Part shown: positions 4,788 through 13,507 of the stretch, piece after piece
Layout: the number at the start of each line of letters is the position of its first letter
How positions within the stretch are numbered: the stretch's first letter is position 1
Source: Methanocaldococcaceae archaeon
GTDB taxonomy: Archaea > AGJL01 > Methanococci > Methanococcales > Methanocaldococcaceae
Assembly: GCA_027023665.1 (NCBI GenBank)
Contig: JALVUY010000085.1
Coordinates: 1-13,507 of the forward strand
DNA: 13,507 nucleotides
Reading direction: 5' to 3'
The notes under the pieces: generated by a model
The model's database searches: none
Seen by the model: only the letters and a program-made list of their open reading frames with translations
What the model was told of the DNA's origin: nothing
Made by a program: the position numbers and the translations under genes

Positions 4788-4909
4788 ATTTTCTTCTATT
4801 TTACTTTTAATTAATTTAAGTTAAGATATTATTCTTTGTTTTATTTTGTTGATTTTGTTAATTTTTATTTAGTTATTCTTTATAATAACAAAAAATAATA
4901 TTTATTATT

Positions 4910-4915
4910 GGTGAT
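4910..4915 (+). promoter_or_regulatory. Ribosome site that sets the methyltransferase start
   Basis: GGTGAT lies four bases before TTG 4920. The same spacing is seen before dnaG and S28e, which supports TTG 4920 over the overlapping upstream TTG 4908. Confidence 0.7.
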
Positions 4916-4919
4916 AAGG

Positions 4920-6005
4920 TTGAAATTTATAGACTTATTTTGTGGATGTGGGGGATTTTCGAGAGGTTTTGTAGAGGAAGGTTTTGAACCATTAGTGGCT
5001 ATTGAGTTAAATGAAGATGCTGCCTTTTCCTATGCATTAAACTTTAATGGAGAGATATATGAAAAAGTTAGAGATGGAGAATATAGATTAAAGGAATTAA
5101 AAGGTTATGTAGGAAGTTACCCATTCAAATTTCCTTTTGAAGAGGAAGACATAAAGTGGTTAAGAAGATTGGGAACATTAAACGAAAAAACTGAAAAATT
5201 AAATCCAGTAGTTATTAACGATGACATTAAAGAAATACATTCCATAGATATAAAAAAATTCTGTAAAAATAAAAAAGTAGATGTTATTATTGGAGGACCT
5301 CCCTGTGAAGGATATACAGGGGCTAATCCAAAGAGAGAAAAAAATCCCTATGATAGATTGTATAAAGATGAAACTGGAAGGTTAGTTTTAGAGTTTATAA
5401 GAATCGTTGGAGATTTACAACCAAAAATATTTGTTATGGAAAATGTTCCTGGAATTAAAGAAGTTAGAGGAGAAATAATAAAGGAGTTTAGAGACATTGG
5501 CTATGAGAATGTATATTTCAATATCTTAAAAGCTGAAGATTATGGAAATCCATCTGTCAGAAGAAGAGTTTTCGTATCAAATATAGAAATTAATCCTGAA
5601 AAGAAAGAACCAGTTCCCGTTATTGAGGCTATAGGAGATTTAATGTATAAAGGTAGAGATGTTCCTAATCACGAATTTGCAGCTTTACCAGCAAGGTTTA
5701 GAAAGAGAGTTCACAAGTTAAGTTGGGGAGATGCTTTTATATATTTCAAAGGGGCTAATAGAAGGTTAGGTAATTATATAAGATTGCATCCTCTTAAATT
5801 ATCTGAAACTGTTATGGGTAAGAGATTTTTTATACATCCTTATGAAGATAGATTATTAACACCAAGAGAACAAGCGAGATTAATGAGTTATCCTGACTAT
5901 CATCTATTTGCTGGAGGTATAAGAAGTTGCTATAATCAGATTGGAGAGAGTGTTCCTGTAGCTTTGAGTAGAGCAATTGCCCAAGTAGTTAAGGAAAATT
6001 TATAA
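4920..6005 (+). CDS. DNA (cytosine-5-)-methyltransferase
   Basis: The enzyme transfers a methyl group from S-adenosylmethionine to C5 of cytosine in DNA. With the TTG start at 4920 it has 361 residues. Motifs appear in standard order: motif I FIDLFCGCGGFSRGF (3-17), motif IV GGPPCEGY (125-132) with catalytic Cys129, motif VI ENVPG (174-178), motif VIII RRRVF (214-218) and motif X QIGESVPVALS (340-350). The target-recognition region between motifs VIII and IX is short, as in single-specificity enzymes. About 55 residues (roughly 44-98) sit between the adenine-binding AIELNEDAAFSY and VVINDDI, longer than in the compact HhaI-type enzymes. No restriction endonuclease gene is next to it, so it may be a solitary methylase or a remnant of a restriction-modification system. 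Its recognition site cannot be deduced here. Confidence 0.95.
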   Translation: MKFIDLFCGCGGFSRGFVEEGFEPLVAIELNEDAAFSYALNFNGEIYEKVRDGEYRLKELKGYVGSYPFKFPFEEEDIKWLRRLGTLNEKTEKLNPVVINDDIKEIHSIDIKKFCKNKKVDVIIGGPPCEGYTGANPKREKNPYDRLYKDETGRLVLEFIRIVGDLQPKIFVMENVPGIKEVRGEIIKEFRDIGYENVYFNILKAEDYGNPSVRRRVFVSNIEINPEKKEPVPVIEAIGDLMYKGRDVPNHEFAALPARFRKRVHKLSWGDAFIYFKGANRRLGNYIRLHPLKLSETVMGKRFFIHPYEDRLLTPREQARLMSYPDYHLFAGGIRSCYNQIGESVPVALSRAIAQVVKENL

Positions 6006-11318: not shown

Positions 11319-12878
11319 ATGAAACCAACAGCTTATTTTTGTATGGAGTTTGCTATTCATCAACCTTTAAAAACTTACGCAGGGGGCTTAGGTTTCTTAG
11401 CAGGTTCTCATTTTAGAGCGGCTAAGAGATTAAATCAACCTCTTGTAGGAGTTTCAATATTGTGGAGTTATGGATACTATGACCAATTGAGAGATAGAGA
11501 AGGTAATATGAAAGTTGAATACATAAGGAAGTATTATGATTTCTTAGAGGATATTAATCTAAAAGTTCCAGTTACTATAAACAATAATACAGTGTGGGTT
11601 AAGGCATATAAATTGGAAGAAGATGTCTTTGGAACATGTCCAATATATTTCTTAACCACTGACATTCCAGAAAATGACGATTTTTCTAGAACAATAACAC
11701 ATAGGTTGTATGATGCTAACAATATATTACACATTGCTCAACAGATAGTTTTAGGAGTTGGAGGTTATAAGGTCATAAAAGAGTGTGAAAATGTAAAACT
11801 CTATCATATGAACGAACCTCATCCTCTACCGCTTGTTTTTAAACTTATAGAAGATTATGGACTTGAATATACTAAAAATCATGTCGTTTTTACTACCCAC
11901 ACTCCTTTACCAGAAGGAAATGAAACTCAGGACATTAATTTATTAAAATCTATGGGTTTCTTTGGAAATGTGGATATAAAATTAGCTGAAAAATTAGGAG
12001 GTAATCCATTTAACTATACTGTATGTGCTTTAAGAGCATGTAAGAGGGCTAATGCAGTATCTAAGAAACATAAAGAAGTTTGCGATAAAATGTGGAGTTG
12101 GGTTAAAGACAAATGTGAGATAGTATCTATAACGAACGCTCAAGATAGACACTATTGGCAAGATCCTATAATAAGAGAGGCGGCAAAAAAATATGATATT
12201 GATATGTTGAGAGAGAGAAAGATGGAATTAAAAGAGATATTATTTGAAGAAGTAGCTGATCAAACAGGTAAGATATTTAAAAAAGATAGATTAACCGTAG
12301 TTTGGGCAAGAAGATTTGTAGCTTACAAAAGACCACATATTCTACTATATGATGAAATGAGACTACTTGAATTATTAAAAAAGAAAAAGATACAGGTTAT
12401 TTGGGCTGGAAAACCTCATCCTAATGACCATAATATGATAGCCACATTTAACTGGATAGTATCAAAGACGAGGGATATGAAAGGGGCTACAATATTAACA
12501 GGTTACGAGTTAAAATTAAGTAAATTACTAAAACAGGGTTCAGATATATGGCTTAATACTCCAAAATTAAATCATGAAGCTTCAGGAACTTCTGGAATGA
12601 CAGCATCAATGAATGCATCTATACATATGAGTACTTTAGACGGTTGGCATGTAGAATGGGCTAAGATGTATCCAGATGATAGTTTTACAATTGGAGATGG
12701 AGTTAGAGATGATGATCCTTATGTGGCTAACTGCATTTATAATTTATTGGAAGAAGTTGCTGATATGTATGACACTGAAAGATGGTGGATGAAGGCATGT
12801 AACTGTGTTAATCATATTGTTGAATACTTTGATGCTGAAAGAATGGCAAAAGAATACGCTGAAAAGCTTTATAAATAA
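11319..12878 (+). CDS. Alpha-glucan phosphorylase-like protein (GT35) lacking the PLP lysine
   Basis: The family (glycogen/maltodextrin phosphorylase, GT35) releases glucose-1-phosphate from alpha-1,4-glucans using pyridoxal phosphate. The product has 519 residues from ATG 11319, preceded by GGGGAT (11309-11314), making it a short-form member. An upstream GTG at 11307 overlaps the ribosome site. Visible motifs are CMEFAIHQPLKTYAGGLGFLAG (8-29), YHMNEPHP (162-169), FTTHTP around His194, the phosphate-contacting RRFVAYKR (331-338), VIWAGKPHPND and WLNTPKLNHEASGTSGM up to 427. The residue after GTSGM is Thr428 (codon ACA), where the family has the Lys that forms the Schiff base with PLP. ITNAQDRHYW also departs from the usual ITNGVHxxxW. 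It may therefore be a PLP-independent glycosyltransferase or have lost phosphorylase activity. In methanogens, glycogen metabolism is the likely context. No other glycogen genes are adjacent. Confidence 0.88.
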   Translation: MKPTAYFCMEFAIHQPLKTYAGGLGFLAGSHFRAAKRLNQPLVGVSILWSYGYYDQLRDREGNMKVEYIRKYYDFLEDINLKVPVTINNNTVWVKAYKLEEDVFGTCPIYFLTTDIPENDDFSRTITHRLYDANNILHIAQQIVLGVGGYKVIKECENVKLYHMNEPHPLPLVFKLIEDYGLEYTKNHVVFTTHTPLPEGNETQDINLLKSMGFFGNVDIKLAEKLGGNPFNYTVCALRACKRANAVSKKHKEVCDKMWSWVKDKCEIVSITNAQDRHYWQDPIIREAAKKYDIDMLRERKMELKEILFEEVADQTGKIFKKDRLTVVWARRFVAYKRPHILLYDEMRLLELLKKKKIQVIWAGKPHPNDHNMIATFNWIVSKTRDMKGATILTGYELKLSKLLKQGSDIWLNTPKLNHEASGTSGMTASMNASIHMSTLDGWHVEWAKMYPDDSFTIGDGVRDDDPYVANCIYNLLEEVADMYDTERWWMKACNCVNHIVEYFDAERMAKEYAEKLYK

Positions 12879-12896: not shown

Positions 12897-13027
12897 ATAT
12901 ACTATGTAAAATAACTTTTTTAAATAATTAAATTTATTAAATCGTTTTATTGTTTTTATAGATTTGTCTATTAATTTAGATAAATAGATTGAATCAGATT
13001 TAAAGAAGTGTAAATAATAATAAGTAG
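12897..13027. other. A+T-rich flank between the phosphorylase-like gene and the CRISPR array
   Basis: I see no gene, no strong promoter and no intact repeat here. If the crRNAs are transcribed leftward, this is the trailer side of the array. The stretch ATCAGATTTAAAG at 12992-13004 vaguely recalls repeat sequence but is too short to call. Confidence 0.35.
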
Positions 13028-13507
13028 TTTCCATCCCCTTAGGGGTCTGATTTTAAACCAGATTCATTTATAATCACATCAAAATATCCAATATCGCTAT
13101 TTCCATCCCCTTAGGGGTCTGATTTTAAACTTAGACTCTACAGACCAGATCCCTGAATTACAAGTGCTTTCCATCCCCTTAGGGGTCTGATTTTAAACAA
13201 AACTCTCTAATGAACTCTCCGTTTGATAATCTTTATTTCCATCCCCTTTGGGGTCTGATTTTAAACTATAATGCAAAATACAGAAATCGTTGATTTCTTA
13301 TTTCCATCCCCTTTGGGGTCTGATTTTAAACGTGGGAGTTGTGCATGCTCCCACCAGAAGTGTAATATTTCCATCCCCTTTGGGGTCTGATTTTAAACGA
13401 TGAAATCTAAAATCATATCAACTTGTTCAAATGTATTTCCATCCCCTTTGGGGTCTGATTTTAAACAGGACACGATTTGAAGAGATTTTAAGATATAATT
13501 ACTTTAT
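13028..13507 (-). CRISPR. CRISPR array, seven 31-base repeats visible, probably running off the right edge
   Basis: Seven repeats of 31 bases begin at 13028, 13100, 13168, 13236, 13301, 13368 and 13436. Six complete spacers of 41, 37, 37, 34, 36 and 37 bases lie between them. At least 41 bases follow the last repeat, so this is either a seventh spacer cut by the window edge or the flank. Each repeat reads TTTCCATCCCC on the left and GGGGTCTGATTTTAAAC on the right, with the three-base loop TTA in repeats 1-3 and TTT in repeats 4-7. CCCC/GGGG gives the repeat hairpin. In the reverse direction the repeat starts GTTTAAAATCAGACC and ends GGATGGAAA, which matches the usual orientation of Methanocaldococcus repeats. 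Transcription is therefore probably leftward with the leader beyond the right edge. No cas gene is in the window, so the type cannot be assigned. Confidence 0.97.

Follow-up and report, generated by a model that had tools for sequence, protein, structure and literature searches.

A compact glycogen phosphorylase-like protein with threonine in place of the cofactor lysine in a Methanocaldococcaceae archaeon, and the wide clade around it

The textbook glycogen phosphorylase is defined by pyridoxal phosphate (PLP) bound to a lysine, and Yu et al. 1994 reportedly measured glycogen phosphorylase activity in extracts. PLP has been described as covalently attached in phosphorylases of this kind, with Lys646 of Escherichia coli MalP as its carrier (a passage in PMC11046441). 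According to a passage in PMC12267944, which cites Gonzalez-Ordenes et al. 2024, the glycogen phosphorylase of Methanococcus maripaludis (MmGP) has no need of PLP, unlike all other characterised phosphorylases, and a table in that article lists fructose 6-phosphate (Fru-6-P) and fructose 1,6-bisphosphate (FBP) as activators and ADP, GMP, ATP, ADP-Glc, UDP-Glc, phosphoenolpyruvate (PEP), citrate and pyrophosphate (PPi) as inhibitors; the glycogen phosphorylase activity of M. maripaludis has been assigned to MMP1220 in a passage of PMC4902934. The present work concerns a stretch of 13,507 nucleotides from a Methanocaldococcaceae archaeon (assembly GCA_027023665.1, contig JALVUY010000085.1), hereafter the window, in which the forward-strand reading frame at 11319-12878 encodes a 519-residue GT35-type protein, orthologous to that of M. 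maripaludis, with threonine in the place of the PLP-carrying lysine.

Judged from its sequence, this protein is very probably an alpha-1,4-glucan (glycogen) phosphorylase of compact build that needs no covalently bound PLP to work, a reading that follows from its GT35 homology, its predicted GT-B fold, the retention of the MalP catalytic residues examined other than the PLP lysine, the occurrence of Thr, Ser or Ala at the lysine position across a large clade, the accompanying set of glycogen genes and the reported PLP-free activity of MmGP. This core function, that of a PLP-independent phosphorylase, has already been reported for a close orthologue; what is new here is the width of the clade, its fusions to a kinase (ROK) domain, a lysine-bearing sister lineage and the setting in gene clusters. 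In the literature searched, we noticed no paper dealing with the clade at large, and the MmGP authors may themselves describe the substitution or the clade.

The window protein and its Methanococcus maripaludis orthologue

The frame is open throughout, and an in-frame GTG upstream would lengthen the product from 519 to 523 residues. The protein is a GT35 homologue, matching the alpha-glucan family phosphorylase model TIGR02094 (361 bits, cut-off 191.7) and Pfam PF00343 (55 bits, cut-off 27), and it gave no match to the GlgA model TIGR02095 of the GT5 synthases at E up to 1. In the alignment to MalP, the motif EASGTSGM-T (Glu420 to Thr428, 12576-12602, the Glu420 codon being 12576-12578) ends in Thr428 (ACA, 12600-12602) where MalP has Lys646, so that the Schiff-base lysine of the PLP-dependent phosphorylases is lacking. 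GT35 proteins with Thr, Ser or Ala at this position are called here the T/S/A form, and those with Lys the Lys-form.

Apart from that lysine, all the MalP catalytic residues that were examined are retained (N273, W280, R332, K337, K365, Y396, E420, G423 and T424). The segment TNAQDRHYW (272-280, 12132-12158) takes the place of TNGVHxxxW, keeping Asn273 and Trp280 (MalP Asn450 and Trp457); the phosphate-site residues Arg331, Arg332 and Lys337 (12309-12329) align with Lys534, Arg535 and Lys540; Lys365 (Lys574) is followed by a clade-specific Pro366 (12411-12416); the segment Gly395-Tyr396-Glu397-Leu398, with Ser401 and Lys405 (12501-12533), keeps the tyrosine (Tyr614), its other residues being clade-specific; and Glu420, Gly423 and Thr424 correspond to Glu638, Gly641 and Thr642. 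All of these features lie on the forward strand. The first-pass annotation of the window had already read Thr428 after EASGTSGM where phosphorylases have Lys, the retention of Glu420 and of the Arg332/Lys337 pair, and the change of NGVHxxxW to NAQDRHYW, and the alignment to MalP confirms each of these readings. It also gave Lys680 and the Arg569/Lys574 pair of rabbit muscle phosphorylase as counterparts.

The M. maripaludis protein in our set (P0008) is 73% identical to the window protein, carries the same Thr and NAQ motif and is its orthologue. It is probably the assayed MmGP, given this orthology, the single GT35 gene in each Methanococcales genome where one was found, and the naming of MMP1220 in PMC4902934. 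In this regard, the earlier proposal of a PLP-free glycosyltransferase, or of a regulatory or binding protein, rather than a phosphorylase, holds in one half only: the passage in PMC12267944 agrees that PLP is dispensable, and the same passage describes a glycogen phosphorylase, which, together with the position of the gene as the sole GT35 found in 30 of the 36 Methanococcales genomes, speaks against the other half. Phosphorylase activity had been named from the outset as the result that would tell against a non-phosphorylase, and such activity is what has been reported for the M. maripaludis orthologue.

Spread, conservation and descent of the lysine-less clade

A GT35 gene is present in 30 of 36 Methanococcales genomes, the genome of the window included, with residue 428 read as Thr in 29 and as Ser in one (L027). 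No second GT35 gene was found in these 36 genomes with PF00343 and TIGR02094, although one of them (G005) holds an additional, sub-threshold TIGR02094 stretch of 18.7 bits. Since all 30 copies read Thr or Ser, Thr428 is neither chance nor error, and sequencing error and decay are ruled out; the search for Lys in close orthologues that the first-pass annotation had recommended thus yielded none, and its view that the gene is not decayed is borne out by the retained catalytic residues and the conservation of the clade.

Beyond this order, the clade occurs in Campylobacterota, Bacteroidota and Verrucomicrobiota, and loci of Campylobacterota, Bacteroidota and relatives of Akkermansia have T, S or A at position 428. 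Two protein searches of a 5.8-billion-sequence database, each giving the best 120 of 8000 scored sequences and hence favouring the nearest relatives, listed 230 clade proteins including the query (T in 158, S in 65, A in six, and one fragment without the motif), none of which has Lys at this position; on the other side, all 121 proteins listed by a Lys-form search, its query included, carry Lys. Among 44 loci, the two most distant (L071 and L072, 31% identity) have Lys. Of these, 34 were traced to genomes: 32 of the genomes have the T/S/A form, accompanied by a Lys-form in two (G037 and G041), and one further fragment (L184, G058) was left unclassified as to form. Nine bacterial genomes (G046, G051, G052, G057, G059, G060, G061, G064 and G069) each contain two divergent paralogues of the clade, and one pattern scan of viral_contigs confirmed no phage copies.

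Conservation within the clade was evaluated in 270 sequences, picked by the motif EA[S/C]GTSGM with T, S or A as the next residue and compared with 50 TIGR02094 Lys-forms; residues 420 and 428 are fixed in this comparison because the set was chosen by that motif. A further 38 positions hold one residue in at least 90% of the clade and in at most 10% of the Lys-forms and differ in a compact Lys-bearing lineage described below, with which the clade has another 14 such positions in common; some of the 38 agree with TIGR02093 enzymes (for example Lys301). Gln275, Arg332 and Lys337 occur in 270 of 270 members, Arg331 is replaced by K in five of 270, and Pro366 is present in 269 of 270; there, the 55 Lys-bearing sequences in the same alignment have Ala, and a separate Lys-form set has Ala (99%) or Thr (1%). 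Across 39 aligned members from archaea and bacteria, the remaining catalytic residues vary little or not at all.

These residues also bear on whether the protein might be a phosphorylase that retains PLP as its cofactor, bound non-covalently through the kept phosphate-binding residues. Such an enzyme would account for the retention of residues aligned with ligands of the PLP phosphate (Arg331 and Lys337), and the 229 motif-bearing clade proteins listed, with T, S or A at 428, would leave it space; the changed segments at 275 and 395-405, near the PLP ring site, point the other way. The statement in a passage of PMC12267944 that MmGP needs no PLP does so too, and retained, non-covalent PLP seems improbable.

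The T/S/A form makes up a single, fully supported branch (100/100). Sister to it, with support of 100/99, stand two Cytophagales proteins of 541-544 residues (L243 and L249) that have the compact architecture and keep EASGTSGMK; their genomes (G310 and G257, respectively) each hold a second GT35-size match. The trees were rooted on TIGR02093 enzymes, which are not an independent outgroup. Under this root, the position of the compact Lys-bearing lineage as sister to the clade suggests a single loss of the lysine, on the stem of the clade, from a Lys-bearing compact ancestor. A root on that stem would instead make the PLP-free GT35 ancestral, and this may be so: all Lys-forms sit on one side of the stem, and a tree with fewer rows drew a warning that long branches meet, two points that count against a single loss; the larger tree drew no such warning. 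We give about an even chance to the joint proposal that a compact, Lys-bearing GT35 ancestor gave up PLP a single time, that a PLP-free phosphorylase is now the usual or only GT35 of Cytophagales, related Bacteroidota, many Campylobacterota, relatives of Akkermansia and Methanococcales, and that substrate phosphate and a new side-chain network together take over the acid-base role of the PLP phosphate.

Genomic context and possible catalysis

In Methanococcales, the GT35 gene and the GH57 family have one and the same distribution, both occurring in an identical set of 30 genomes and both missing from the other six; PF08323 is found in 31 of the 36 and GH15 in 27. In three genomes (G018-G020) that keep the GT35 gene and GH57, the only frames matching PF08323 are 384-432 residues long; there is no match in a GlgA-like (GT5) frame of about 525 residues and none to GH15.

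In a sample of 150 Campylobacterales genomes, requested at a completeness of at least 95%, where forms were separated by their scores, the length of the frame and the range of the match, GT35 occurs in 57: of these, 28 have only the T/S/A form, 22 have both, five have only the Lys-form and two have an unclear form (G138 and G143). Motif checks of the 27 Lys-type loci and of 24 of the 50 genomes with the T/S/A form agree with these calls. The T/S/A gene and GlgA are no more than 15 kb apart in 28 of the 50 genomes, and 25 and 164 kb apart in two; in the other 20, GlgA is on another contig or no full GlgA is present. Twenty hand-picked stretches have a common gene set of varying order and content, with a Lys-form in six, the typical cluster reading: optional Lys-form, Pgm, Pgi, T/S/A form, AMPK1_CBM protein, nucleotidyltransferase/mutase fusion, two GH57 genes, GalT-like gene, optional GlgA, ROK, GlgA and GlgB. 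Families were checked for the genes of L037, L040 and L041, four GalT-like proteins, one phosphofructokinase and two branching-type GH57 proteins, the remaining genes being named by BLAST to these or by the start of their sequence. In Campylobacterales, the T/S/A form thus sits in a recurring glycogen/glycolysis cluster with GlgA, and at L228 a phosphofructokinase gene adjoins it. GlgA scores above its cut-off in 55 of 59 GT35-bearing Campylobacterales genomes (the 57 plus G037 and G040), and within this set in 49 of the 52 that have the T/S/A form, for which reason the T/S/A form was rejected as a stand-in for a missing glycogen synthase in this order.

In Cytophagales, GT35 is present in 75 of 117 genomes, and 28 newly fetched loci comprise 25 with T or S and three with Lys (one long form and two compact). 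A ROK domain is fused to the T/S/A form in 12 protein clusters (P0105 and P0243-P0253) according to the Pfam marks of the database, and one of these clusters was scanned here; a simple motif scan found the usual ROK sugar-kinase motifs in the first 200 residues of only some fusion proteins.

The same data bear on the earlier suggestion of a retaining alpha-glucosyltransferase dependent on nucleotide sugars, or a reversible glucan:nucleoside diphosphate (NDP) enzyme, with the nucleotide replacing PLP. Several observations favour it: the predicted GT-B fold ties with GT5 synthases in structure comparison, 15 of 39 clade members (the window protein not among them) match PF08323 at E up to 0.1, compared with 0 of 30 and 2 of 10 among Lys-forms, a GalT-like gene occurs in many Campylobacterota clusters, and a passage in PMC11046441 suggests that PLP entered a proto-GT35 NDP-sugar enzyme. 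A Lys-form model used as a structural control, of poorer quality (pLDDT, predicted local distance difference test, 83.5), had no GT5 chain among the 50 matches listed, which excludes nothing. At columns where the two forms differ, however, agreement with GT5 is three for the clade and five for the Lys-forms, with only six GT5 sequences compared, and GT5 profile scores are alike for both, so that a GT5-like pocket is unsupported; the GalT-like family (PF01087) is found in 0 of 36 Methanococcales, and a reversible enzyme feeding a GalT-like phosphorylase is therefore not general. With GlgA so frequent in Campylobacterales genomes that have the T/S/A form and phosphorylase activity reported for the M. 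maripaludis orthologue (PMC12267944, in the passage cited), the nucleotide-sugar role lacks sequence support and is quite unlikely, slightly more so than non-covalent PLP.

A non-catalytic glycogen-binding or regulatory protein would fit the co-occurrence with a PLP-type GT35 in 22 of 57 GT35-bearing Campylobacterales and the small AMPK1_CBM glycogen-binding protein encoded beside the T/S/A gene in some clusters. The near-invariance of the other catalytic residues, the standing of the T/S/A form as sole GT35 in most searched genomes that carry it and the activity reported in PMC12267944 make this the least likely of the alternatives, with a very low probability.

If the window protein is a PLP-independent phosphorylase, inorganic phosphate would bind the kept platform of Arg332, Lys337 and the Gly423-Gly426 loop, make a same-face, retaining attack on the terminal glucosyl bond, and pass its own proton to the 4-OH of the leaving glucan. 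The PLP cavity, vacated when a Lys-bearing ancestor presumably lost its lysine once, would be filled by clade-specific residues (Gln275, Pro366, Glu397, Ser401 and Lys405) or by a second phosphate or another anion. This last step is tentative, because along the sequence the changes on the stem show no significant clustering around catalytic landmarks (p 0.11; 0.72 among conserved positions). The Lys-form structure model has low confidence at 14-25, 491-495 and 515-533, in contrast to the confident T/S/A-form model, different alignments underlying the two, and these segments are compatible with a PLP pocket left empty in the model.

A widespread clade without the lysine implies that two chemistries may be lumped together under labels assigned automatically, 'alpha-glucan family phosphorylase' being one. 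The clade allows direct testing of how a retaining phosphorylase dispenses with the PLP phosphate, and the Lys-bearing sister lineage and the PLP-type neighbours in some clusters offer the comparisons by which the loss of an ancient cofactor can be studied.

Among related loci, the Thr-form gene of a Pontibacter actiniarum plasmid (L125/L215) lies in an island with DUF1622, type II GAPDH, a formate/nitrite transporter, cytochrome c3 and manganese catalase; on a Methylophaga plasmid, DUF1622 adjoins a Lys-form, and two cyanobacterial plasmids (L117 and L123) encode Lys-form phosphorylases with an N-terminal YHS-like domain, which passes the Pfam cut-off in L123 and just misses it in L117. Elsewhere in the window, an array resembling clustered regularly interspaced short palindromic repeats (CRISPR) lies near the end (13016-13507), with seven copies of a repeat of about 31 bases at a spacing of 65-72 bases, the first three reading CTTAGGGG and the last four CTTTGGGG. 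The frame at 4908-6005 looks, by its motifs, like one for a C5 cytosine DNA methyltransferase, and no nuclease partner for it is obvious among the listed frames of the window.

Comparison with known systems

The closest described system is MmGP, from the same order, with the same Thr and NAQ motif and one GT35 gene per genome where found; the comparisons made brought out no feature that distinguishes it from the window protein. The PLP-dependent GT35 enzymes (E. coli MalP/GlgP, and TIGR02094 enzymes such as that of Segatella copri, 9l6i) have in common with the clade the fold, the phosphate-site Arg/Lys, the Glu, Asn and Trp and the GTSG helix, whereas the clade differs in the replacement of Lys by T, S or A and of NGVH by NAQN/D, in its compact build without the DUF3417 domain of the long enzymes, and, relative to TIGR02094 Lys-forms, in the 38 stem positions that it conserves and that are rare in them. 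The compact Lys-bearing proteins ('Kshort'; L243 and L249) have Lys18, Trp49, Asn201 and Ala274 in common with the clade and, unlike it, keep the PLP lysine, Ala366 and Trp456. GlgA, the GT5 glycogen synthase, has the same GT-B fold, with Arg/Lys, Glu and Tyr positions that align with those of the clade, yet it uses a nucleotide-sugar donor, and the window protein does not match its model TIGR02095. The retaining trehalose phosphorylase of family GT4, which differs from the clade in family and substrate, is a retaining GT-B phosphorylase without PLP and provides the mechanistic precedent.
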